Shown here: positions 1,160 through 14,379 of the stretch, piece by piece | Layout: each line of letters begins with the position of its first letter | How positions within the stretch are numbered: position 1 is the first letter of the stretch | From: Planctomycetota bacterium | Lineage (GTDB): Bacteria > Planctomycetota > UBA8742 > UBA2392 | DNA length: 64,000 bases | Reading direction: 5' to 3' | Assembly (NCBI GenBank): GCA_020425605.1 | Contig: JAGQRH010000018.1 | Location: 1-64,000 of the forward strand | Notes under the pieces: generated by a model | Database searches by the model: none | What the model was told of the DNA's origin: nothing | Seen by the model: only the letters and a program-made list of their open reading frames with translations | Translations under genes and position numbers: made by a program

Positions 1160-3697
1160 CTACTGTTCGTCTTTGGCTTTCTGCAGCCATTGGCGAATAT
1201 GCTCCCGGACGGCCTCATAGTGGGGATCGCGGTCGAGCGCCTCTTCGAACTTCTTTTCGGCATCAGCATACTTGCCCTTGAGGAATAGCAGCCGACCCTG
1301 GAAATACGAAGTCTCGAATGACTTCGGATTGAGGTTCTGCAGCGTGCGCACGACCGGCTCCGCCTTGTCCGCTTCATCGTCTTCAATGAATGCGCGGGCA
1401 AACCGGACCTGCTTGCGGAACTCGACGAGGTCTTCGTACTCCGGCCCACGCGGGTCTCGCGGCAGATCTTGCGCCGGATTCATCTTCACGCGCACGGAAA
1501 ACTGCGGCCCCGCCTCAAGCATCTGCTGAACCGGAATGCGGATGTACTTGCCGTAGGTATGCGGCGCGGCAGACACCCATAGTTCTCCGGTCGTAACATT
1601 GGTGATGACGCTGTGGCAACAGATGCCCGCGTCGATCGCGTTTCGGTTGCCGAGTCCAATGTCCTTGTCGCCTCGTCCTTTGCGGTCACGCAGGATTTCC
1701 TGCGCGATGGTCGGGTCTATGCTGCCCAGGTGACGTTCCGTCAGCTCCTCCAGGCGCTGCCAGCGATATGTGGTAGTTGCTCTCTCGATCTGTTCCTTGT
1801 TGACCGCATCGCCGGCGAATGGCTCGGTCAGCATATGATTGGTCTGCAAGAGCAGCCCCGGCTTGTCCGCCTCACGCATTGCGCAATGGCCGGGGGACTT
1901 CTCAATCACCACGGCCCGCTTGTCCTTTCGCGTCGCAATCATGTACGTGTCGCTGACGAACACCTGCGTCTCATTGATAAGCTCGTACGCCTCATCAATG
2001 GTGCTGCATTGCGCAAGCACGCGGCGTACCAGCATCGAAACCGGCGTTCCGATGTGGCCGAAGCTGACTTCATCTGTGCGGGCGGCATTCACGTGAATGC
2101 TGAGCCCTTCCTTGTTCATGCCAGTGACAGCACCCGCCATGCCGGCCCAGGCCACGTGAACGTACGGGATTCCCTTTTCCGGCCATACGTAAAGGACTGC
2201 CTTGTCCTCGTCGAAGACCTTGCCGGCCTCAAAGTCGAAGTTGCGCCCCACGATCAGCTGGCCGTCCTTGGAAGCCTTGCCCCAGGCGGCGAAGCTGGTG
2301 CACCCGACAAACTCGCTGGTGGTGACCAGGGGGTTGTCGATGAAAATGTGGCTGATGTCGTGCGCCGCATGATAGTTGAGGATGCGGTGGTACAGCGGCG
2401 CTTCCTCCGGGTGGTGATCGATACTGCCTTCGGTGAGACCCAGAACCTCGAGTTTCTCGTCGTCACTGATGTAGTCCGGCAGATCTCGGTTGTTGATCGC
2501 GACCAGTTGCTTCACGAGCCAGTAGGAAGCCTTGTTGGGCAGGAACTCGTTGATCTTTTCGATCAGCAGCTTCTCCTGCTCTTCAGTCAGGTCCTGATTC
2601 AGTCTGGCGTTGGCGTAGCCACGCTCCCAGCGATTGCCCGTCAGTCCGATTTCATGAATCCCGTCTCGCTCGCGGCGCCAATTGAGCCCGAGCTGCTTGA
2701 CAGGCAGATCCTGTACTGTGCTGCTGATGATCTCGGTCTTGGCGAGTTCGCGGCTGCCTTCGTACATGGGCGGCTGGGCGATGCACCAGTTGCTGACATA
2801 GACGGACACGCCAACCAGCAGCGCAATCAGCAGAGCGACGAGTGCCATGCCCAGCCGGGTGACCCAGCCGTGAATTCGCGGAAAGGAAGGACGCTTGCCG
2901 CGCCGCAGCGCTGCCAGCTCTGCCTTCATCACAGAGTGCACACGCTGCTTGAGTTCGGCGGCTTGCCGCTCATCCGCCAGCCCGGTCGTCGCAATCGGAT
3001 CGAGGACCTTGATGATCGTGTCCGGATGATGAACGGCCGGGCTGCCCTTTCGGACTGTGGCACCCGTGCCGTCAATAACGACCGGGACGACCGGAACCTG
3101 GGCGTCGATGGCCAGCATGAACGCGCCATTCTTGAAGCGACGCATATTGCCGTCCGGGCTGCGAGAGCCCTCTGGAAAGACAAGGATACTCACGCCGTCC
3201 TTCAGCCAGTCGAGGGCCTTTTCAAACCCCTGAGGGCGCTCAGGATCTGCATCCTCCGCCTGCTCATCGATCTGGATGTGGCGGCAAAGCTTGTTCAGTT
3301 CGCCCATCAAGGGGTACTTGAAAGGCCAGCCCTTGATCATCCAGCGTGCGTTCACGGGCAGCATCAGGGCCATCAGGATATCGAGCGTCGACTGATGATT
3401 GCAGACGATCACACAAGGGGCTGGAAACGCCTTGCGCCGACAGTTGATGCGGCGCTGCTGGCCGAAGGGGAAGAGCCGGAAGAACCAACGAGCCAGGCCC
3501 CGCTGGCCGGAATAGAATGCGTCTCCGCGGTGCTTGGCAAAGAATCGGTCGGCGACCCAATAGGGCAATTCAAGCACGAACAGGAACAGCAGCAGTTGGA
3601 CGCCCAGCAGCCCATATGCGCAACCGGCGCGCACGACGTTCATCACCACGTTGGATGGCGGCGGAAAGCCGTATTCCGGATCGGCGGAGTCCGCCAT
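1160..3697 (-). CDS. PlsC acyltransferase - C45 (Ntn-hydrolase) acyltransferase - TPR fusion
   Basis: Starting at ATG 3697 (GAGGA six bases upstream; a TTG at 3724 is in frame) this encodes 845 aa. Residues ~1-280 are a 1-acylglycerol-3-phosphate acyltransferase domain with the HxxxxD motif (NHQSTLD, His101/Asp106) and FPEGSRS. Hydrophobic segments lie at ~24-46 and ~281-303. Residues ~350-760 are a peptidase C45 / acyl-CoA:6-aminopenicillanate acyltransferase domain: a G-x-x-x-E-x-G-Y entry motif and GCTSF with Cys466, the expected autoproteolytic nucleophile, then GRNFDFE. The last ~80 residues form a TPR-like repeat. Cleavage before Cys466 would separate the PlsC and C45 parts. The context suggests it transfers an acyl product of the adjacent ketosynthase cluster; acceptor and substrate are unknown. 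Confidence 0.82.
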   Translation of the reverse strand: MADSADPEYGFPPPSNVVMNVVRAGCAYGLLGVQLLLFLFVLELPYWVADRFFAKHRGDAFYSGQRGLARWFFRLFPFGQQRRINCRRKAFPAPCVIVCNHQSTLDILMALMLPVNARWMIKGWPFKYPLMGELNKLCRHIQIDEQAEDADPERPQGFEKALDWLKDGVSILVFPEGSRSPDGNMRRFKNGAFMLAIDAQVPVVPVVIDGTGATVRKGSPAVHHPDTIIKVLDPIATTGLADERQAAELKQRVHSVMKAELAALRRGKRPSFPRIHGWVTRLGMALVALLIALLVGVSVYVSNWCIAQPPMYEGSRELAKTEIISSTVQDLPVKQLGLNWRRERDGIHEIGLTGNRWERGYANARLNQDLTEEQEKLLIEKINEFLPNKASYWLVKQLVAINNRDLPDYISDDEKLEVLGLTEGSIDHHPEEAPLYHRILNYHAAHDISHIFIDNPLVTTSEFVGCTSFAAWGKASKDGQLIVGRNFDFEAGKVFDEDKAVLYVWPEKGIPYVHVAWAGMAGAVTGMNKEGLSIHVNAARTDEVSFGHIGTPVSMLVRRVLAQCSTIDEAYELINETQVFVSDTYMIATRKDKRAVVIEKSPGHCAMREADKPGLLLQTNHMLTEPFAGDAVNKEQIERATTTYRWQRLEELTERHLGSIDPTIAQEILRDRKGRGDKDIGLGNRNAIDAGICCHSVITNVTTGELWVSAAPHTYGKYIRIPVQQMLEAGPQFSVRVKMNPAQDLPRDPRGPEYEDLVEFRKQVRFARAFIEDDEADKAEPVVRTLQNLNPKSFETSYFQGRLLFLKGKYADAEKKFEEALDRDPHYEAVREHIRQWLQKAKDEQ

Positions 3698-3805: not shown

Positions 3806-4048
3806 ATGACTGCAGAAACCATCCGTAAGCAAGTGGATCAAATCGTCGCCGACGAGTTCGAGCTCGATGCAGGCGCGATCAAGCCGGAAAGCGACCTCTA
3901 TGACGACCTCGGCCTCGACAGCCTGGACGCCATCGACCTTGTCGTGGCGCTGGAAAAGAACTTCGGCTTCAAGGTCGAAGAAGGCGCCGCCCGCAAGATC
4001 CGCAAGCTTGAGCAGCTATACCAGTTCGTAGCCGAACGGGTTGCGTGA
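3806..4048 (+). CDS. Acyl carrier protein
   Basis: This 80-aa acidic four-helix protein has the phosphopantetheine site GLDSLDAID; the Ser carries the arm. It has the usual ACP length. No clear Shine-Dalgarno precedes ATG 3806. It sits alone on the plus strand between the minus-strand PlsC-C45 gene and the minus-strand dehydratase, whose 3' end it faces. It is one of two ACP genes of the cluster and presumably carries the growing chain; which ketosynthase it serves cannot be told. Confidence 0.93.
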   Translation: MTAETIRKQVDQIVADEFELDAGAIKPESDLYDDLGLDSLDAIDLVVALEKNFGFKVEEGAARKIRKLEQLYQFVAERVA

Positions 4049-4076: not shown

Positions 4077-4427
4077 TCAAACCACGCGCAGCGTCAACTC
4101 CGCCACGTCCTTATCGCCGTCGCGCAGCACGGCCTTCACCCTGGTTCGTCCTTCCTCGACAGGCTCGGCGCCGAGCGTCAATTCCAATTCGCGCCCGGGA
4201 CCTGTCGGGTTCATGAACTTCGCACGCGAAACCTCAGCCAGCCGCACCTCACGCCCGAGCAACCGCCCTGCGAAGTGCACAGCCGCCGCAACCTGCACCA
4301 CTGCCGGCAATACCGGCCCATCCGGGAAGTGTCCCCTAAAGAATTCCTCGGAGCCACTGAAGCGCAGGAGCGCAGTGCCGTCATCGAATGACAGCGTCGC
4401 AGCTTGAAGCTCAACGGCCAGTGTCAT
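4077..4427 (-). CDS. FabZ/ApeI-like hotdog dehydratase, atypical active site
   Basis: This 116-aa hotdog protein carries FFRGHFPDGPVLPAVVQVA, matching the HFPGxPxxPG(V) signature of 3-hydroxyacyl-ACP dehydratases. The catalytic His is kept, but the Gly after PxLP is Ala, and the position of the helix Glu of FabZ appears to be Ala (PAVVQVAAAV). Similar short dehydratase-like proteins occur in aryl polyene clusters. Its ATG overlaps the stop of the upstream lipoprotein gene (ATGA, 4424-4427), so the two are translationally coupled. It would dehydrate hydroxyacyl-ACP to enoyl-ACP; catalysis without the usual Glu is uncertain. Confidence 0.75.
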   Translation of the reverse strand: MTLAVELQAATLSFDDGTALLRFSGSEEFFRGHFPDGPVLPAVVQVAAAVHFAGRLLGREVRLAEVSRAKFMNPTGPGRELELTLGAEPVEEGRTRVKAVLRDGDKDVAELTLRVV

Positions 4428-5179
4428 CCGCCCTCCTTTGGCTCGAACAGCCTGTCAGGCCATGGCTTGTCGCGTGCTGTAAACTCCGTGATCTTGATTG
4501 TCAGCTTGTAGGGCGGTCCGTCCGACTGGACGCCCGGCTCCCGCAAGACGATTGTTGAAGGTCGTTGTTCCCGCCAGTCGTACTGGTCGACTCGATATAG
4601 CGGGCGGTCACTCTGCTGGTACTCATACCAGTCGACGTGAGCAGGATCGCCGACGAGGTTTACAGACAAGTCGCCGGACTGCCCAAGGAGCTTTGCACGA
4701 GTTCCCAACTCGGTGGCCTGCAGCTGCGCCTCGTCTACTCGTAGATGGCCGAAGTCCGGCCGAGTCCTGATCCATCCCGGTTTGAACAGGGCACTGAGCA
4801 GAAAGACGCGTCGAATGTCACGCGCGATGTTAGTAATGACCTTGCCGTCAAATTCTTCGGCGGCAAACACGACCGTTTCCGTGCTTCCGTCGCCAACTAC
4901 GTCGAACAGCTTCAGGCCCTGCTCTGTCATGCCCTGAAGCCGAAAACGATCAGGACGTTGCACGACGAGGTACCCGACAAGTGTGCGCGTGGTGATGCGG
5001 AAGTCGATCGTCACTGTCTGCACACACTTGAATTGTTCCGGCCACCGCTCGTTGAACGCCGCCGTTACTGCCGCCCCCGTCAGTTCGGGTGTCGGCGCGG
5101 GTTCGAGGCGCTTGTACGGGTCCGTTTCGGCGCAGCCCACTAGCGTGAGCAGCAGCAGGATGAGGGCACTAGTCCGCAT
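4424..5179 (-). CDS. LolA/LolB-like outer-membrane lipoprotein of the cluster
   Basis: The start is placed at ATG 5179, which gives a clean lipoprotein signal (MRTSALILLLLTLVGC, lipobox LVGC) and overlaps the end of the MMPL gene by 11 bp. An in-frame start at 5212 is less likely. The mature ~235 aa resemble the LolA/LolB or DUF3261 half-barrel: repeated beta segments such as FRITTRTLVGYLVVQRPDRF and GMTEQGLKLFDVVGD. In aryl-polyene and flexirubin loci such proteins accompany an MMPL exporter and are thought to carry the lipid-like product to the outer membrane. The family assignment rests on pattern and context. Confidence 0.65.
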   Translation of the reverse strand: MRTSALILLLLTLVGCAETDPYKRLEPAPTPELTGAAVTAAFNERWPEQFKCVQTVTIDFRITTRTLVGYLVVQRPDRFRLQGMTEQGLKLFDVVGDGSTETVVFAAEEFDGKVITNIARDIRRVFLLSALFKPGWIRTRPDFGHLRVDEAQLQATELGTRAKLLGQSGDLSVNLVGDPAHVDWYEYQQSDRPLYRVDQYDWREQRPSTIVLREPGVQSDGPPYKLTIKITEFTARDKPWPDRLFEPKEGG

Positions 5180-7619
5180 GCTTTGTCTTGACCTCCAGCA
5201 ACGTCGGCACAACCGTCAATGTCAGCACCAGTGCGCTGATCACGCCAATCGCCGTCGTCACGCCGACACTGAACAGAGCCGGGTGCCTGGCCAGCGCCAT
5301 GGAACCAAACCCGAACAGCGTCGTCAGCGCCGCCACAAGTACGCCCGCACCCGCATGCTTCAGACGCTCGTCGGCTTGTTCCCGACTGTCTGACCCACGA
5401 TAGGTCTGCACGAAGAAGATGCCGTAATCAATACCGAGCCCGGCGATGAACACGGTCACCAAGGTGTTGATGATATTGAACGGGATACCGATCAACCCCA
5501 TCAGCCCCAACGTCCAGACGATTCCTCCGGCCACAGGCACCAGCGCCGTGGCCACTTCACGTAGCTTGCGGAAGGTAAGCCACAGCACCACAAGCACCAG
5601 CAGCAGGCTCAGCCCACCCATGAGTACCAAGTCGTGTCGAATGAACTCGATCATACGGCCGACGAAGGCAGCCTTGTTCAGCACGATCGCGGCGGGCTGC
5701 CGCGCCTTCAATTCACTGAGCCTGGAGACGTCAAGCTGTGTCGTAGTGCCAATGTACCAGCGCCCATCCTGCTTGCTGACGAAGTTGCCAAGCAGCAGCC
5801 AGATCGGCCGCTGCTGCAGCGCAGCTGGATTCAGCGTGGCCGGGTCTTCGGCAAGTGCCAGTTTGTCGAAGAACGCCGTGAGCGCCTTCTCACTCACTCG
5901 CATTTCACGCGAAGGGTTGTTGGGGTCGCGGGCCGCCGTCTCGCGAATCAGCTTGCGAAGACCCTCCAGCCGATCCCCGTTCCAGAAGCGCCTCCAGCGC
6001 GACACGTTGTCCAGTTGCGTCTGTGTCGCCGGAAGCACCCATGCGGCGCTCTCGTACTTCGCGCCCAGCTCGTGCAGGTCGTGCGCAGCCAGATCGTTCT
6101 GTCGCAGCGCTTCTTCCAGGTCATTGCCGCCAACAACGACCAGCGTTCGGCTGAGAGTTTCCTGCCCGAATGTCTGCGCGACCAGCTTCTCGGCCGCTCG
6201 GGTCCGCTCGCTCTTGCCGTCCAGGTTCGTGACGTCGCCGTCAAAGCCCACGCTCGGCAGAAACGCCGCCAACACCACGGTTACCAATCCAACTGTGCAT
6301 AGCACTGGCCAACGAAACCGGCGCCGCGTTCGTTGCAGAGCACCGATCGCCCCGGATAGCGCGGAAGCCGCCTGAGATTTCGGACCCATCTTTCGCAGTA
6401 GCTGTGGCCCGGCGGTGAATGCGAATACCAATGAGCCCGCAATGCCCGCAATCGCCATCTCGGCCAGTTGGTGCAGGCCGTCGAATTCCGAAAACCGAAG
6501 CACGGAAATCGCCAACACCGTTGTCAGCATCGCCACGAAGCCCGGCCTGCCGACATACCGCAACGCAAGACGGGCGCGACTTTCCCGGTCACCGTCCAGG
6601 CTGCTGTAGGTGGTCAGCAGGTGAACCGCATAGTCGACCGAGATGCCCAGCAGGACTGCGCCGAAGCCGGCAGTGATCGCGGACAGTTCGCCATGGATCC
6701 AGCCCTGTGAGCCAAGGGCGAAGCTGAAGCCAAAGCCGACACTCAACAGTGCAATCAAAATCGGCGAGACCGCCCGGAACGCGACGATGAAGAGCAAGAG
6801 TACCGCAATCACCGACGTCGCGATTGTCAGGTGCATGTCAGTCTTCAATACCTCGGCGTTGTCGACACTGCTTCGATGCGCGCCGATTACGTGCGGCGTA
6901 ACGCCGTCTGGAAGCTCCGCCAGCGCGGCATCCATGGCGGACATCAGCTCGCGACCTCTGCCGGTGTTACTCGATGGCACGTCTGACTCGAGCAGAATCA
7001 CCGCCAGCCGCCCGTCTGCGCTGAGGATTCGGCCGTCAGCGTCCGACTTGCCTGCGAATCCGGAGTTCAGCTTCTCAAAACGCCGCAACACCAGTTCGTC
7101 GAAGCCGAAAGGGTCGCTCCGAAATCTATCGACGACCTTGATACCCTCGGCCCCGGCCTGCCCATCCACATAGCGCTGAAGGGCCGCACCGTAGTAGTCG
7201 GCGTTCAGGCGTCCTTCCACCTGCCCCTGCATGGCTTCATCGAACAGCAGCGGCGCCTTGCCGATATAGAGGCTGCCTATGTCTTCCTGCGCCGATTGGT
7301 CGATTCGAGAGACGACTTCGCTGATGCCGTCGACCTTGCGTAGCGCGGCATCCGCCTGGTCCACCGCGGCCGCGAGTGTTGCCGGATCGTCACACTCCAG
7401 CGCGACTACGATGCGCTCCAGCCCGCGGTAGCGGTGCATGGCAAGCTGCGCCTCGGAGACCACGGGCTCATCGTGCGGCAGCAGGGCGAAGACGTCTTCC
7501 TGGAAGTCAATGCGAAGCGCGCCAATCAGCGACAGCACAAGCAACACAATCAGGATAGTCGGAAGCACGACCGGCTTGCGCCTGCAGAAATCAAATAGTT
7601 GCTCGAACGGTCCGCGCAT
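5169..7619 (-). CDS. MMPL/RND-family exporter
   Basis: This 816-aa protein has the MMPL (COG4258-like) plan. A first membrane helix at ~17-36 is followed by a large periplasmic domain containing FALLPHDEP, then a bundle of helices with GISVDYAVHLLTTY. A second periplasmic loop follows, and a second helix bundle with GLGIDYGIFFVQTYRG. The two G-I/L-x-x-DY motifs mark the TM4-type helices of each half. Upstream is an 85-bp gap after the FAD-enzyme gene that holds a 20-bp palindromic element. Downstream it overlaps the LolA-like lipoprotein gene. It probably moves the cluster's acyl or polyene product out of the inner membrane. Confidence 0.87.
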   Translation of the reverse strand: MRGPFEQLFDFCRRKPVVLPTILIVLLVLSLIGALRIDFQEDVFALLPHDEPVVSEAQLAMHRYRGLERIVVALECDDPATLAAAVDQADAALRKVDGISEVVSRIDQSAQEDIGSLYIGKAPLLFDEAMQGQVEGRLNADYYGAALQRYVDGQAGAEGIKVVDRFRSDPFGFDELVLRRFEKLNSGFAGKSDADGRILSADGRLAVILLESDVPSSNTGRGRELMSAMDAALAELPDGVTPHVIGAHRSSVDNAEVLKTDMHLTIATSVIAVLLLFIVAFRAVSPILIALLSVGFGFSFALGSQGWIHGELSAITAGFGAVLLGISVDYAVHLLTTYSSLDGDRESRARLALRYVGRPGFVAMLTTVLAISVLRFSEFDGLHQLAEMAIAGIAGSLVFAFTAGPQLLRKMGPKSQAASALSGAIGALQRTRRRFRWPVLCTVGLVTVVLAAFLPSVGFDGDVTNLDGKSERTRAAEKLVAQTFGQETLSRTLVVVGGNDLEEALRQNDLAAHDLHELGAKYESAAWVLPATQTQLDNVSRWRRFWNGDRLEGLRKLIRETAARDPNNPSREMRVSEKALTAFFDKLALAEDPATLNPAALQQRPIWLLLGNFVSKQDGRWYIGTTTQLDVSRLSELKARQPAAIVLNKAAFVGRMIEFIRHDLVLMGGLSLLLVLVVLWLTFRKLREVATALVPVAGGIVWTLGLMGLIGIPFNIINTLVTVFIAGLGIDYGIFFVQTYRGSDSREQADERLKHAGAGVLVAALTTLFGFGSMALARHPALFSVGVTTAIGVISALVLTLTVVPTLLEVKTKHAD

Positions 7620-7704: not shown

Positions 7705-9255
7705 TCAGGCGGGATGTGTGGCCTCGCGGACCTCGTTGATCAGCGCATCCGTGCCAAGGATCGCACCCGCCACTCCGAAGCCGGTCACGCAAGCCCCAAA
7801 AATCCCCGGCGTACCGGTGCCTGCCCCGGTGACATATAGCCCTGCATACCGCGTACGCCGACGGACTCCGTTGCGCCCCTGTGCGCTCAGGCCGGGCTGC
7901 ATGCCGTATACGCCACCGCGAGGATAGCCGGCATAGTCGCGCAACGTGAGCGGAGTAGATGCGTCAATCACGTTGATGTGCCCTCGCAGTTGCGGGATAC
8001 GCTGCACGACCATGGCGATGATGTTTGAGGTCAGCCTGTCTTTCAGCGCCCCGTACTCCGCGTCGCGCCTGAGAGTGCGGCTGTTCTCCCACTTCTCGAA
8101 CCACTCCCAGCGCGCGCTGCCCAGGGCACTGAATAGCTGCGGGCCGGACATCGGCGGTGGCAGGTTGACGATGGCGTCGGCCGGGCCCTGGAGCTGCGGG
8201 TCGTAGAAACAGTCTGGGTCGTCTTCGCGCAGCAGGTAATGGTTGTGTCCCCCCACGTCGGTCAAGTCTGCGGCGGGATCAACCGTACCGTAGACGACGA
8301 AGGCGCCGATGCACTCTTCGGCGTTGGCCATGCGCTTGCGCAGGGCGCTGCGGTATGCGTCTTCGGGCAGCAGCTTGACCGCGACCCGCGGATGCACGGC
8401 CAGGATTACCTCTCCGGCTTCCAGAACTTCGCCATTCACAAGCTCGACGCCGGTCGTGCGGTCACCCTCTACCAGCACACGAGCGACGGGTGCCCGCACG
8501 CGCAGTTCGCCACCCAGCTCCTGCAGGCGGCTGACAAGTGGCTTCGTGATCGCGTCTCCCCCACCTTCAACATAATGGGGCCCCTCGACCGCGCTGCCCA
8601 CCACGGCCGCGTGGATGGCCAGCGGTACTTCTGCGGCACGTACCGCGTACAGAGACGACTGCGCACAGATCAGCGACCTGAGCCGCGCACTTGCGCCCAG
8701 CCCCTGAAGGTAGGCCTCCAGGCTGGTCTCAAACAGCTCGCGGTCGTAGGCACCCTCGGCATCCGGATTCAGCGAGTGCCAGTTGAGCGACGCTTCTACG
8801 CGGACCATCTTTGCTACATATAGCTCGATCTTCGCGGCTTCGGCCGGGCACTCACGCTTGAGCGCTGCCTCCACCTTATCCCACCCGACCGGCACGCAGA
8901 AATCCCCCGAGGGCAGGCTGATCCTATCAAAGCACTCTCGATCAAGCGGTACCGTCGGCACGTCCACACCCAGGTAGCGAAACAGCCGCCACATGGTCTG
9001 GCCGGGGGACAGCGACCCCACGTAATGCACGCCCGTGTCGAAGCGGCAGGCACCCTGGGGTCCGCGGCGCTGGAACATCTGCATGCAGCCGCCGGGGACA
9101 TTGTGCGCTTCCAGCACCAACGGCGTCCGCCCGTGCTTTGCCAGCACGATGGCGGCCGAAAGCCCGCTGATTCCTGAGCCGACGATAATGGTCGAGTGAG
9201 TCACCGACTCATCAGAAAGAACGGACGCCCCGAGCGCAAGCGACGGGGAAACCAC
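7705..9255 (-). CDS. FAD-dependent CrtI/phytoene-desaturase-like oxidoreductase
   Basis: Up to 516 aa from GTG 9255; another GTG at 9204 would begin directly before the nucleotide-binding strand. The Rossmann FAD motif is VGSGISGLSAAIVLAKHG, followed by PGGCMQMFQRRG and FDTGVHYVG, as in the phytoene desaturase/retinol saturase group. The C-terminal FAD contact is LYVTGAGTGTPGIFGA. Such enzymes desaturate, saturate or isomerise polyenes and are seen in flexirubin-type loci. It lies 23 bp after the ketosynthase gene on the same strand and is probably co-transcribed. The substrate is inferred to be the ACP- or membrane-bound product of the cluster. Confidence 0.85.
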   Translation of the reverse strand: MVSPSLALGASVLSDESVTHSTIIVGSGISGLSAAIVLAKHGRTPLVLEAHNVPGGCMQMFQRRGPQGACRFDTGVHYVGSLSPGQTMWRLFRYLGVDVPTVPLDRECFDRISLPSGDFCVPVGWDKVEAALKRECPAEAAKIELYVAKMVRVEASLNWHSLNPDAEGAYDRELFETSLEAYLQGLGASARLRSLICAQSSLYAVRAAEVPLAIHAAVVGSAVEGPHYVEGGGDAITKPLVSRLQELGGELRVRAPVARVLVEGDRTTGVELVNGEVLEAGEVILAVHPRVAVKLLPEDAYRSALRKRMANAEECIGAFVVYGTVDPAADLTDVGGHNHYLLREDDPDCFYDPQLQGPADAIVNLPPPMSGPQLFSALGSARWEWFEKWENSRTLRRDAEYGALKDRLTSNIIAMVVQRIPQLRGHINVIDASTPLTLRDYAGYPRGGVYGMQPGLSAQGRNGVRRRTRYAGLYVTGAGTGTPGIFGACVTGFGVAGAILGTDALINEVREATHPA

Positions 9256-9278: not shown

Positions 9279-10496
9279 CTAAGGCCGGGAAAGGACAACT
9301 GCCGCATTGGTTCCGCCGAAACCGAAGCTATTGACCAACGCGTGCTTGAGCGAGCGCTCGAGGGTGCCCGAAACAACGTTGATCTTCGCCGCGCCGTCTT
9401 CCTGCGTTTCAAAATTAATGTTGGGCGCGATGAAGCCGGTCTGGAGCATCAGCGCGCTGTACAGGATTTCGCTTGCGCCGCTCATCCAGCATTCATGACC
9501 GGTCATGCTCTTGGTGCTGCTGACCGGCGTCTGCTCGCCGAAGATGTCGCGGATCGCCTCGGCCTCTTTGGCGTCGCCAATCGGTGTGCTGGTGGCATGC
9601 GCGTTGATGTAGTCAATCGCACCCGGCTCAATCTCTGCGTTTCCGAGCGCCATCTGCATTGCACGACGGGCGCCGTCACCGCTCGGCAGCGTCAGATGCT
9701 CGCCGTCGCTGCTGAAGCCGTAGCCGCGCACTTCCACCAGCGGCTTGCCACCCCGGGCCTTCAGGTGGCTATCGCTTTCCAGGATCAGCGCCGCCGCGCC
9801 GCCGCTCGGGACCAGGCCGTCACGGCCGCGATCAAACGGGCGACTGGCAGCGACAGCATTGTCCGCGCGTTTGCTGAAAGTTCCCAGCGCGTCGAAGCTC
9901 GCCATCGACTCCCAGTTGATTTCCTGCATTCCGCCGGTGACCACCACGTCCTGCAAACCGGCACGGATCAGCGTAAAGCCTTGTCCCACGGCATGGGCGC
10001 CTGAGGCACAGGCCGCCGCCAACGTCCAGGCCGCGCCTTGGGTGCCGAGCAGGGCATTCAAGTTCATACTCGCCGTGCTGTTCATACACTGGAAAATGTA
10101 GCCGCTTCCGAGTTGCTGGGTCGTGCCGTCGCGCCTCACGGAATCGGCGACTTCCACGTTCGGGCCGCTGGTGCTGTCGTTACCGATGATCAATCCGGCG
10201 CGCGGGTTGCGCAGGCTTGCCGGGTCGATGCCTGCATGCTCAATCGCCTCAAGCGCCGAGAACGCACACCACTGGGCGCTTTCGTGCATGCTCTTGCGTG
10301 CCTTGCGGTCGAGGCGGGCTTTCGGGTCGAAGCCTGCAATCGCGCCGGTCAGCGCAGAACGGAAGCCGAGTTGCCTGCGCTGCTCGTCCAGCACCACTCC
10401 GCTGCGCCCGTCGCGCAACGCGGCCTCAATCTCGGCCAATGATTTACCGAGGGACGAGACGGCCGCGAGGCCCGTGATATAGACGCGTTCAGTCAT
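9279..10496 (-). CDS. Beta-ketoacyl-ACP synthase (FabF-like), catalytic
   Basis: This 405-aa thiolase-fold protein has the full Cys-His-His triad: Cys163 in AAACASGAHAVG, His in INAHATSTPIGD, and His in SMTGHECWMSG. It ends with NSFGFGGTNAAVVLSRP. Length and motifs match FabF/KAS II. It would perform decarboxylative condensation of malonyl-ACP with the growing chain. It lies 17 bp downstream of the ketoreductase gene, in the minus-strand operon. It is one of two apparently active ketosynthases in the cluster. Confidence 0.93.
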   Translation of the reverse strand: MTERVYITGLAAVSSLGKSLAEIEAALRDGRSGVVLDEQRRQLGFRSALTGAIAGFDPKARLDRKARKSMHESAQWCAFSALEAIEHAGIDPASLRNPRAGLIIGNDSTSGPNVEVADSVRRDGTTQQLGSGYIFQCMNSTASMNLNALLGTQGAAWTLAAACASGAHAVGQGFTLIRAGLQDVVVTGGMQEINWESMASFDALGTFSKRADNAVAASRPFDRGRDGLVPSGGAAALILESDSHLKARGGKPLVEVRGYGFSSDGEHLTLPSGDGARRAMQMALGNAEIEPGAIDYINAHATSTPIGDAKEAEAIRDIFGEQTPVSSTKSMTGHECWMSGASEILYSALMLQTGFIAPNINFETQEDGAAKINVVSGTLERSLKHALVNSFGFGGTNAAVVLSRP

Positions 10497-10513: not shown

Positions 10514-11239
10514 CTACATGTACATCCCGCCATTCACCCCGAGCACCTGGCCCGTGATGTAGGCGGCTTCATCTGATGCCAGGAAGCTCACTGCAGCGGC
10601 AATTTCATCCGGTGTGCCGAATCGCCCCAGCGGAATCGCCTTGGCCAGATCCTCGGCCGGCAGTTCTTTGACCATGTCGGTCTCAACGAATCCGGGCGCG
10701 ACTACGTTCACTGTGATCTTGCGACTCGCGATCTCCTTTGCCAGCGACTTGCACGCGCCAATCAAACCGGCCTTGCTTGCAGAATAATTGACCTGCCCAG
10801 CGTTGCCCGCCTGTCCGCTGACGCTACTGATAGCGATAACCCGGCCGCTGCGGCGACGTAGCATTCCGCGCAGACACGCCTTCGTCACGTGGTAGAAGCC
10901 GCCAAGATTGGTGTTGATGACGCTGTTCCATTCCTCTTCGCTGGTCATGGCGAACAGGCCGTCGCGTGTGATTCCCGCGTTGCTGACGACCACGTCCGGC
11001 GCGGCTTCAGCCTCGATCAGTGCCTCAAGTACCATCCGCACGGCCTCACCGTCCGCGACATCGAACCCAACCGGGACCGCGCTTCCGCCGGCCGCCTCGA
11101 TCTCGCTGCACAGGCTTTCGGCGTCGGCCTGGTTGCGGCCATAGTTTGCCCACACGCGATATCCGTCGCTTGCCAACCGCTTTGCGACTGCACGGCCGAT
11201 ACCACGCGATGCTCCTGTGACCAGTGCGATTTTGGACAA
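10514..11239 (-). CDS. 3-oxoacyl-ACP reductase (FabG-like SDR)
   Basis: This 241-aa short-chain dehydrogenase has the cofactor motif TGASRGIGRAVA and N-A-G at ~90. The active-site Ser and YSASKAG are present, and the C-terminus is GQVLGVNGGMYM. The predicted start is TTG 11239, preceded by GGAG eight bases upstream; no better ATG is in frame. It is the first gene of the minus-strand arm and reads away from the shared 120-bp divergent region. It would reduce ketoacyl-ACP to hydroxyacyl-ACP before the dehydratase step. Confidence 0.92.
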   Translation of the reverse strand: MSKIALVTGASRGIGRAVAKRLASDGYRVWANYGRNQADAESLCSEIEAAGGSAVPVGFDVADGEAVRMVLEALIEAEAAPDVVVSNAGITRDGLFAMTSEEEWNSVINTNLGGFYHVTKACLRGMLRRRSGRVIAISSVSGQAGNAGQVNYSASKAGLIGACKSLAKEIASRKITVNVVAPGFVETDMVKELPAEDLAKAIPLGRFGTPDEIAAAVSFLASDEAAYITGQVLGVNGGMYM

Positions 11240-11359: not shown

Positions 11360-11617
11360 GTGGAAGCACTGGTAGACGAACTCAAGACACTCATCATCGA
11401 GCACCTGAACCTCGAGGACGTTGACGCAGCCAAGGTTGACCCGAACGCGCCCCTGTTCGGTGAAGGCCTCGGGCTGGACAGCGTTGACGCACTCGAGCTG
11501 GTGATGCTGATGGAAACCACTTACGGCGCGCGCATCGAGTCGTCCGAAGTCGGCAAGAAGGCCTTTGCCACGCTAAGCTCACTTGCACAATTCGTGCAGG
11601 AAAACCGCAAGAACTAG
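11360..11617 (+). CDS. Acyl carrier protein, first gene of the plus-strand arm
   Basis: This 85-aa acidic protein has the phosphopantetheine motif GLGLDSVDALEL. The start is GTG 11360, with AAGGA about nine bases upstream. Seven bases separate its stop from the start of the following ketosynthase. Its place at the head of the ACP-KS-GxxExxY-CLF operon suggests it is the carrier for that KS/CLF pair, while the ACP at 3806 may serve another step. Confidence 0.93.
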   Translation: MEALVDELKTLIIEHLNLEDVDAAKVDPNAPLFGEGLGLDSVDALELVMLMETTYGARIESSEVGKKAFATLSSLAQFVQENRKN

Positions 11618-11624
11618 CGCATAC

Positions 11625-12863
11625 ATGCCCCATACGAGTCCCCCGCAGCCTGTTGCGATCACCGGCATGGGCGTCATCGGCGCCTTCGGACGCGGCGTGC
11701 CCGCGCTTGATCGTGCGCTGGCAGAGGGCCGTGAGGGCGTCGCCCCACTCACGCTCTGGGAATCGAGCATTCGGGACTTCCCCGTGGGGCAGTATCCGGA
11801 TCGACTTGAAAACGCCCTGCACGAGGTACCCGGGCTTTCCGTCCGCGCGCACCGCAGGCTCTCGCGCTCGGACGCGCTCGCACTCGTTGCCGCCGCGGAG
11901 GCCGTGAAACAGTCAGGGCTCACGAATCTGGCAACCGCGGGGGCCTACATTGGCCAAAGCGTCTGCGGAACGCTGACCAGCGAAGAACTCTACATTGAGG
12001 CACGACGCCGCGGCCAGGCAGGCGAGAGCACGAGACTCGACCTGAGTGGCGCCTTTGTGCACGAGGGTGCGAACACGCTTGACCGCCTGGCGGATGTGTT
12101 CCAGTTGCAGGGCCCAACGCTCAGCTTCATGACAGCATGCAGCAGCGCAGCCAATGCAATCGGGCTTGCGGCCGACGCTATCCGGGCCGGTCGCTGCAAC
12201 GTGATGCTGGCGGGAGGAGCTGACAGCCTCTCAAGGATCGCGTTCAACGGCTTCTGTAGCCTTAAGGTTGTCAGCCCTGACGGGCCAAGGCCATTTGATC
12301 GCGACCGCCAGGGAATGATGGTTGGCGAAGGCGCAGGCTTGCTGGTGCTGGAATCTTTAGAGCATGCGAACGCACGTGGAGCGAACGTACTCGCACTGCT
12401 GACAGGCTACGGCCATTCCTGCGATGCGCACCATCTGACAGCACCTCACCCGGAAGGCAAAGGTGCCATCGCCGCGATGCGCGAAGCGCTGACGATGGCC
12501 GGCCTGCAACCCGGCGACATCGGCTACATCAATGCCCATGGCACGGCCACTCTCGACAATGACCGAACAGAGGCACGCGCGATCAACGCCGTGTTCGGTG
12601 AGGACAGCGTTCCAGTAAGCAGCACCAAACGCTTTGTTGGGCACACTCTGGCGGCTGCAGGCGGCGTTGAGGCCGTCGTTTCGATACGTGCGCTGCAACA
12701 GAAGAAGCTGCCTCCGAACCTCGGACTGCGCGTACCGCTTGACGACGCGAAGCTTGACCTGGTGGTGGCAACGCGTGATACGCCAAGCCTGCGCCATGTG
12801 CTGTCCAACAGCTTCGGATTCGGCGGCAACAACGCAGCACTGCTTTTTGCGGAGGCGAACTGA
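11625..12863 (+). CDS. Beta-ketoacyl-ACP synthase, likely KS partner of the CLF-like protein
   Basis: From ATG 11625 it is 412 aa. The triad is complete: Cys in FMTACSSAANAIG, His in INAHGTATLDND, and His in KRFVGHTLAAAGG; GFGGNNAALLF lies at the end. An earlier in-frame ATG at 11583 overlaps the ACP gene and is rejected. The stop overlaps the ATG of the next gene (TGATG). The order KS, small protein, non-catalytic KS resembles the heterodimeric KS-CLF units of aryl polyene and type II polyketide systems, in which this would be the condensing subunit. Confidence 0.92.
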   Translation: MPHTSPPQPVAITGMGVIGAFGRGVPALDRALAEGREGVAPLTLWESSIRDFPVGQYPDRLENALHEVPGLSVRAHRRLSRSDALALVAAAEAVKQSGLTNLATAGAYIGQSVCGTLTSEELYIEARRRGQAGESTRLDLSGAFVHEGANTLDRLADVFQLQGPTLSFMTACSSAANAIGLAADAIRAGRCNVMLAGGADSLSRIAFNGFCSLKVVSPDGPRPFDRDRQGMMVGEGAGLLVLESLEHANARGANVLALLTGYGHSCDAHHLTAPHPEGKGAIAAMREALTMAGLQPGDIGYINAHGTATLDNDRTEARAINAVFGEDSVPVSSTKRFVGHTLAAAGGVEAVVSIRALQQKKLPPNLGLRVPLDDAKLDLVVATRDTPSLRHVLSNSFGFGGNNAALLFAEAN

Positions 12864-13267
12864 TGGATCCCCAGCGCCAGCAGCAATTGAACGGAGTCTT
12901 CGAGCGGATCTTCATCGCATCCAGTGCAGTGCACGAAGCGCTGGGCCGTGGATTGCCCGCCACGACCTATCGAAGTTGCCTCGCGTACGAACTTGGGCAG
13001 ATGGGCCACAAAGTCCAATGCGATGTAGCTGTGCCGATCATTTTTCGTGAGCACCGGGTGGATGCAGGCGTACGCATCGACTTGATCGTCGACGGACTGG
13101 TCTGCGTTCGAGTGCATAGCATCGAGAACCTGACAAACTTCTACGACCAGGAGATGCAGTCCTTGCTTCGCATTTCAGGCCTGCCACTTGGAATTGTCGT
13201 GAACTTCAGCGTACCAAGCGTGCGCGGGGCCATGCACCGGATCATGAACCCGGCGCCGAGAGTGTGA
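12863..13267 (+). CDS. GxxExxY-family PD-(D/E)xK-fold protein with lost active site
   Basis: This 134-aa protein aligns by eye with the GxxExxY family: [20 protein letters not shown], then HRVDAGVRIDLIVDG and LPLGIVVNF. The family's Glu in G-x-x-E-x-x-Y is Ala (GLPATTY). The E-x-K of the nuclease core is R-x-H (CVRVHSIEN). Only the Asp of RIDLIV remains, so nuclease activity is unlikely. It is fused by TGATG overlaps to the ketosynthase before it and the CLF-like gene after it, which implies tight co-translation. A structural or assembly role in the KS/CLF complex is inference. Confidence 0.72.
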   Translation: MDPQRQQQLNGVFERIFIASSAVHEALGRGLPATTYRSCLAYELGQMGHKVQCDVAVPIIFREHRVDAGVRIDLIVDGLVCVRVHSIENLTNFYDQEMQSLLRISGLPLGIVVNFSVPSVRGAMHRIMNPAPRV

Positions 13268-14379
13268 TGGGTGTAGTAGTAACTGGAATCGGAGTTGTGA
13301 GCGCGCTCGGTGCGAACCCGGCAGCGTTCCGGCGTGCACTGGTAGACGGCACCAGCGCCTGCACCATGCATGACTTCGTGCGCTTCGACGGCAGCGTGGT
13401 GCGCGCGCCGGCGTACCTGGCCGTGCCCGCCGAGCCTGAAGGCCTGATCGAGCCTCGCAAGCTGCGCCGCATGTTCCGGCTGGCGCGCATGAGCGCCGTG
13501 GCCGCGCGGCAGGCCCTGAAGCACGCCGAGCTTGACCCAGCGGCGATGGACTCCTCACGGCTCGGCATCTGCTTTGGCACCAGCTTCGGCGCAATGGAGC
13601 CGACCCAGAAGTTCATGGATTCATGGATTGAAAACGGGGAGGCTTCCGCCAGCCCGCTCCAGTTCATGAACAGCGTTCACGGGATTCTCGCCAGCCAGAT
13701 CGCGCTCGATATCAACGCGACCGGCGTCAACCTGACGACCGCGCAGCGCGACATCTGCTTCGAGGCGGCGCTGGACACAGCAGTCGGCCTGCTGGAAACC
13801 CGGCGCGCGGATGTACTGCTCGTGGGCGGCGCTGACGAGGTTACAGCGATGCTGCATGAGTTCGGCTCGCACACGGGCCAGCTTGTACTCGATGAAGTGC
13901 CCGGCCTCGATCCGTGGGGATCGCGCAGAGGCGTAGTACCGGGCGACGGAGCAGCGGTGTTCGTCCTTGAACGGGATGACAGTCCACGGCGTGCTTTGGC
14001 TCGCGTCACTGGTACGCGTATCGGTCGTTGCGACCACAGCGGCCCCAACGTCGCGGCTGAAGTGCTAAGCGCTGACGGGACGAAGCCTGACCTGGTGACC
14101 AGCAATCGAGATGGCGGCAGCCGCATAGGCAAACTGAACAACGCACAGGATAGAGCGCTTGGCGTAGACAGCGTCAGCCACCGGGGCAACTTTGGCACCT
14201 GGCCGGCTGCGGGCGCGATGCAGTTCGCGGCAAACGTCCTGATGCTGAGCAACGGCGAATATTACGAACCACTCGCGAACGGCAGGCCCAGCGGCCGCCG
14301 GGGGGCCGCGCCAGGGACGATCCTGCACAACGCCCCAAGTATCAGCGGCAGTCATGCCGCCTACGTGCTGACAGCATAG
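13267..14379 (+). CDS. Non-catalytic ketosynthase-like protein (chain-length-factor type)
   Basis: From ATG 13267 it is 370 aa and keeps the thiolase fold: a GVVVTGIGVVSALG start, G-x-C-F-G-T-S-F-G, and VLLVGGADEV. All three catalytic positions are changed. The Cys region reads NLTTAQRDICFEAALD with no TACSS, the first His region is VTSNRDGGS, and the second GH is GT (NFGTWPAAGA). This is the pattern of a chain-length factor that pairs with an active KS. It is coupled by a 1-bp TGATG overlap to the gene before it. The single Cys (~164) does not align with the nucleophile. Confidence 0.8.
   Translation: MGVVVTGIGVVSALGANPAAFRRALVDGTSACTMHDFVRFDGSVVRAPAYLAVPAEPEGLIEPRKLRRMFRLARMSAVAARQALKHAELDPAAMDSSRLGICFGTSFGAMEPTQKFMDSWIENGEASASPLQFMNSVHGILASQIALDINATGVNLTTAQRDICFEAALDTAVGLLETRRADVLLVGGADEVTAMLHEFGSHTGQLVLDEVPGLDPWGSRRGVVPGDGAAVFVLERDDSPRRALARVTGTRIGRCDHSGPNVAAEVLSADGTKPDLVTSNRDGGSRIGKLNNAQDRALGVDSVSHRGNFGTWPAAGAMQFAANVLMLSNGEYYEPLANGRPSGRRGAAPGTILHNAPSISGSHAAYVLTA

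Follow-up and report, generated by a model that had tools for sequence, protein, structure and literature searches.

A conserved PlsC-C45 fusion protein in an aryl-polyene/flexirubin-like gene cluster of a Planctomycetota family

The window (the whole stretch of 64,000 nucleotides from a Planctomycetota bacterium that was analysed) encodes a protein that joins a PlsC domain to a C45 Ntn acyltransferase/hydrolase domain, and this fusion is real and conserved. It is encoded without internal stops in all 16 searched genomes of the window's Planctomycetota family, six of them from the same genus, the window's own among them; in 15 it is complete in one frame, the copy in family genome G008 being split over two contig ends, and the relatives within the family are 50-77% identical. 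Because all 16 family genomes carry it, a frameshift or an assembly join between two genes, which the earlier note had named as the danger to its reading, is ruled out, as is chance. An internal start yielding a separate C45 protein is unlikely, no Met across the helix region being conserved in all fusions. PlsC and C45 are already known as separate parts of such pathways; no report of their fusion in one chain was found in the literature on these clusters.

Domains and motifs of the fusion protein

The 845-aa ORF runs on the minus strand from an ATG at 3697 to a stop at 1160-1162; a start at TTG 3724 is less likely, because the alignment of relatives begins at the ATG. The following features were assigned:

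1160..3697, minus strand: PlsC-TM-C45-TPR fusion protein, 845 aa (ORF; Pfam and NCBIfam; family genomes)
3572..3628, minus strand: N-terminal hydrophobic segment, residues ~24-42 (Kyte-Doolittle scan)
3074..3427, minus strand: PlsC/LPLAT domain, residues 91-208 (PF01553; TmPlsC 5kym; motif conservation)
2795..2851, minus strand: transmembrane helix, residues ~283-301, basic on the PlsC side (hydropathy; alignment to the anchor helix at the N-terminus of separate C45 proteins)
1607..2638, minus strand: C45 Ntn acyltransferase/hydrolase domain, residues 354-697 (NF040521; alignments; R485, D488, N537 and N620 conserved)
2300..2302, minus strand: codon of Cys466, predicted nucleophile, with predicted self-cleavage between G465 and C466 (aligned C45 sequences)
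1217..1402, minus strand: C-terminal TPR, residues 766-827, one to two repeats (Pfam below cut-off; TPR chains)

PF01553 covers residues 91-208 with an E value of 3e-23 (82 bits against a cut-off of 23), the TmPlsC structure 5kym matches the PlsC part (E 5e-18), and both motifs are intact, namely NHQSTLD (residues 100-106, the NHxxxxD or HX4D box) and FPEGSRS (174-180, EGTRS-type), with the key residues invariant in 15 aligned fusions from the window's family. By motifs and score the domain belongs to the PlsC/LPLAT family, and acylation of a lysophospholipid is predicted.

The second half matches the C45 proenzyme family NF040521 over residues 354-697 (182 bits against a cut-off of 85) and PF03417 over 477-674 (E 2e-19). 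It carries Cys466 in a VGCTSF motif, and C466, R485, D488, N537 and N620 are conserved in an alignment of 33 C45 sequences, residues of catalytic type being kept from Planctomycetota to Bacteroidota. As in Ntn enzymes generally, we take C466 and the Arg/Asp/Asn set to play the corresponding active-site roles. The literature gave no assigned function, reported activity or product for the C45 proteins of these clusters, which would suit a non-catalytic C45 with a structural or regulatory part and PlsC as the sole working enzyme, but the conservation of nucleophile and active-site residues across both phyla speaks against this reading and makes it highly improbable. Among solved structures the best match of the C45 part is the beta subunit of NAAA (6dy3), a weak one (E 2e-4) in which the Cys and GRNxD align. 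An AlphaFold2 model of the fusion from a six-sequence alignment (pLDDT 46, pTM 0.34) was too poor for fold or subunit packing. The chain of domains described in the earlier note, PlsC with NHxxxxD, membrane helix, C45 with GCTSF and TPR, is confirmed by Pfam/NCBIfam and the motifs, with weak TPR matches at 766-827 that stay under the Pfam cut-off.

Membrane topology and predicted self-cleavage

One strong internal hydrophobic helix (residues ~283-301) lies between PlsC and C45. Over the 15 residues that precede it, the fusions carry a net charge of roughly +1 to +4 (one has 0), and the charge on the following side is -2 to +2. Each of the 18 scanned separate C45 proteins starts with a hydrophobic helix, whose N side is basic in nearly all. 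Since the window helix aligns with this N-terminal helix, a PP motif following in most, it is probably the old C45 anchor retained at the junction. Hydropathy and charge predict a cytoplasmic PlsC and make a periplasmic C45 likely; the suggestion of the earlier note that C45 is placed across the membrane from PlsC is thus upheld as a prediction, both by the charge around the helix and by the signal-anchor-like helix of the separate relatives.

Cys466 is invariant in the 33 aligned C45 sequences and Gly465 is present in 32, and as the C45 profile starts at residue 354, with homology to separate C45 proteins from ~320-337, Cys466 lies inside the C45 domain. The predicted cut would yield residues 1-465 (PlsC, helix and the alpha part of C45) and 466-845 (the beta part of C45 with the TPR), the first part of C45 (~337-465) with the conserved E375, E417, R438 and Y442 lying N-terminal of it. 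With the cut inside the domain, cleavage should lead to an anchored alpha/beta C45 enzyme and not to two freed enzymes. Isopenicillin N acyltransferase (IAT, penDE), which shares with the window C45 the Pfam family named for its activity (PF03417), is cleaved at Gly102-Cys103 into alpha and beta subunits, whose attachment differs between fungal species (PMC7183595); unlike the window protein, it acts on a beta-lactam in fungal peroxisomes and has no PlsC, helix or TPR.

According to the earlier note, self-cleavage, if it occurs before Cys466, would release PlsC and C45 as separate subunits; in the rival reading built on this, the two enzymes part and act independently and the fusion only ensures equal expression. 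The Gly-Cys site is indeed present, and the alpha subunit of Penicillium chrysogenum IAT comes off easily during purification (PMC7183595); however, PlsC would keep the N-terminal portion of C45 attached to it after the cut, and the subunits of related human Ntn enzymes remain joined once cleaved (PMC9140057), which makes the release of two free enzymes unlikely and a mere expression device very improbable. The domain chain, the intact motifs and the topology of the note's reading are supported and subunit release is not; the aryl-polyene/flexirubin-type locus had no place in it.

The gene cluster and its relatives

At higher positions than the fusion gene, the window carries these genes:

3806..4048, plus strand: acyl carrier protein (PF00550, E 7e-13)
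4077..4427, minus strand: ApeI/FabZ-like dehydratase (PF22818, E 3e-8)
4424..5212, minus strand: weak candidate for a LolB/DUF3261-like lipoprotein (PF11659, E 0.006; NF053540 LolB2_flexi, E 0.003; both under cut-off)
5169..7619, minus strand: MMPL/RND lipid exporter with no attached PlsC (PF03176, E 1e-29)
7705..9255, minus strand: CrtI/CrtD-like FAD oxidoreductase (Pfam/NCBIfam; homologous to the flexirubin-locus FAD oxidoreductase)
9279..10496, minus strand: ketosynthase
10514..11239, minus strand: ketoreductase, FabG-like
11360..11617, plus strand: second acyl carrier protein (ORF; resembles ACP genes of related loci)
11631..12863, plus strand: ketosynthase
13264..14379, plus strand: chain-length-factor-like (CLF) ketosynthase (N-terminal KS profile only)

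The cluster holds the set of ketosynthase (KS), CLF, ketoreductase (KR), dehydratase, ACPs, RND exporter and Lol-like factor, the LolB-like match being weak. A PDDEXK_3 gene (PF13366, E 3e-21; 12863-13267, plus strand) lies between the KS and CLF-like genes, as it does in related genomes (loci L028, L029, L080 and L082).

The window cluster and the equivalent regions of genomes G002 and G006 showed no gene for an AMP ligase, ammonia lyase, glycosyltransferase, HtrB, LolA or thioesterase. The search for an AMP ligase homologue returned none in six family genomes and also missed one in G030. Each genome has one aromatic lyase, which lies outside the cluster and which by inspection may be an ordinary HutH; homologues of the glycosyltransferase and HtrB occur at other loci of the family genomes. 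As the aromatic-starter genes were not found, the cluster is filed, by its gene content, only as aryl-polyene/flexirubin-like, and the lack of an AMP ligase together with the probable HutH means that it may make something other than an aryl polyene. The titles and abstracts on aryl polyenes in Planctomycetes gave general cluster surveys only. Genomes of the window's family also have another locus (L125 at G000:C66:101557-102789, L126 and L127) with a homologue of the DUF2062-type glycosyltransferase and, in some of them, HtrB-like or KS-like genes nearby; the rest of the pathway may be encoded there.

A strong C45 match was present in 35 of 392 Planctomycetota genomes, 16 being the family genomes with the fusion and 19 others having a separate C45. 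Separate C45 proteins measure ~550-600 aa, and the 19 non-family open frames (555-676 aa) are too short to include PlsC too; these relatives are 30-47% identical, and every one has an N-terminal helix of its own. In other Planctomycetota, on the Bacteroidota plasmids and on one Oligoflexia contig, nearly all C45 relatives with readable flanks sit in aryl-polyene/flexirubin-type type II PKS loci, whose neighbour sets vary among KS, KR, ACP, CrtI-like oxidoreductase, MMPL, HtrB, DUF2062 glycosyltransferase, polysaccharide deacetylase, LolA and thioesterase; the C45 loci L068 and L077 gave no neighbour match and hence no support for the cluster context. That the fusion is a component of an aryl-polyene/flexirubin-type pathway appears very probable.

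Beyond Planctomycetota, the searches covered plasmids, phage records and a single scan of genome contigs, so PlsC-C45 fusions may also occur elsewhere; viral contig scans returned nothing. Separate C45 genes were found on one Oligoflexia contig and on two Bacteroidota plasmids; the plasmids of Persicobacter psychrovividus (L063, NZ_AP025298.1) and Aureispira anguillae (L062, NZ_AP026868.1) carry flexirubin-type clusters or part of one. A C45 fragment is also present in L129 (MT837971.1), a GenBank 'Bacteriophage sp.' record from human faeces, and since it adjoins a flexirubin-type AMP ligase, this is probably bacterial DNA despite the phage label. The flexirubin-type C45 proteins of Persicobacter (pPP6, AABK40_RS21930) and Aureispira (pAUEa, AsAng_RS29270) resemble that of the window in domain, conserved residues, N-terminal helix and neighbourhood, but are encoded by separate genes without PlsC and are 31-35% identical to it. 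In the APE cluster of Flavobacterium johnsoniae, an acyl-CoA:6-APA acyltransferase and a phospholipid/glycerol acyltransferase are listed as separate genes, the likeness of its C45 to that of the window being drawn from this published gene listing and not from sequence (PMC5932025). FlxW, a ligase-like enzyme, was proposed to link polyene and dialkylresorcinol (PMC3992019), and by analogy with the gene order in Persicobacter (MMPL-PlsC-methyltransferase, FAD oxidoreductase, C45, AMP ligase), an identity of FlxW with the C45 protein would fit.

In related loci the PlsC is often found on another partner. It is attached to the MMPL exporter in G030, G108, G283, Persicobacter and Aureispira, with a methyltransferase behind MMPL-PlsC in G030 and Persicobacter (Pfam), and the NCBI annotation of the Aureispira protein is trifunctional MMPL/LPLAT/methyltransferase. 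These proteins (WP_264793640 in Aureispira, WP_338399298 in Persicobacter) bear the cluster's PlsC as the window fusion does, but on exporter and methyltransferase, whereas in the window family PlsC sits on C45 and the window MMPL stands alone, falling outside the trifunctional class because no PlsC lies C-terminal of the exporter (Pfam). In the trees, the PlsC domains of the fusions form one clade that groups with cluster PlsCs, away from housekeeping PlsC (92/94), and their C45 domains form one clade nested within separate C45s (support 100/99). PlsC on MMPL in the one and on C45 in the other points to a PlsC that swapped partner within a single pathway, from one of its components to another or the reverse. 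The PlsC-C45 fusion is most simply read as having arisen once, at the base of the window family. A further partner for such a PlsC is seen in another planctomycete, G038 (L020:52-2664), where it is fused to a family 2 glycosyltransferase.

Proposed function and significance

The joining of PlsC and C45 hints at a shared lipid substrate, reached by the two enzymes from opposite faces of the inner membrane. We propose a two-sided lipid-tailoring enzyme of an aryl-polyene/flexirubin-type locus (type II fatty-acid-like PKS), a model to which, taken as a whole with all its steps, we give an even chance. PlsC at the cytoplasmic face would load an ACP- or CoA-bound polyene or acyl chain onto a lyso-lipid anchor, and the MMPL exporter would carry the lipid outward. 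C45, anchored on the periplasmic side through its own helix, would cut itself at Gly465/Cys466 and remain joined as an alpha/beta enzyme; with Cys466 as nucleophile it would then hand the exported lipid's acyl chain on to a final acceptor, without ATP or CoA, the main alternative for this step being the trimming of a chain off the exported lipid. The LolB-like factor would bring the product to the outer membrane, and the fusion would couple the first acylation to the periplasmic step. In E. coli, ApeD and ApeJ, likewise acyltransferases near an RND exporter and LolA/LolB-like proteins, were proposed to join the polyene to an anchor that is exported by ApeM with Lol-like proteins and that is still unknown according to the paper; unlike the window, that cluster has no C45 gene in its gene table (PMC8253772).

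Whether C45 transfers or hydrolyses is not told by the conserved residues here, and we put acyl transfer rather than hydrolysis at slightly under an even chance. The nearest solved relative by sequence, NAAA, shares the Cys and GRNxD and is a lipid amidase, not a transferase, which, weak as the match is, counts against the transfer model; NAAA and acid ceramidase differ from the window C45 as lysosomal amidases of very low identity and other domain order. C45 might instead be an NAAA- or acid-ceramidase-like periplasmic amidase or esterase that deacylates the lipid made by PlsC, the fusion then combining one acylation with one deacylation. Enzymes of related fold hydrolyse lipid amides (PMC9140057), and neither CoA nor ATP is expected in the periplasm; on the other side, the AAT family includes true acyltransferases, and we regard this hydrolytic reading as possible but rather doubtful.

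The proposed tailoring model can be narrowed to a transmembrane acyl relay in a single chain, in which PlsC loads the lipid and, after export, the self-activated C45 half passes the chain on to a new acceptor. We put this relay forward tentatively, as a rather unlikely reading; if true, polyene-lipid synthesis would include an acyltransferase that works beyond the inner membrane without needing CoA or ATP, and the C45 of flexirubin clusters would thereby gain a function. Together, the PlsC-C45 fusion and the alternative PlsC-exporter fusion are natural evidence pointing to acyl loading, export and the C45 step acting on one lipid, and because the fusion ties C45 to lipid acylation, the function of C45 becomes directly testable.
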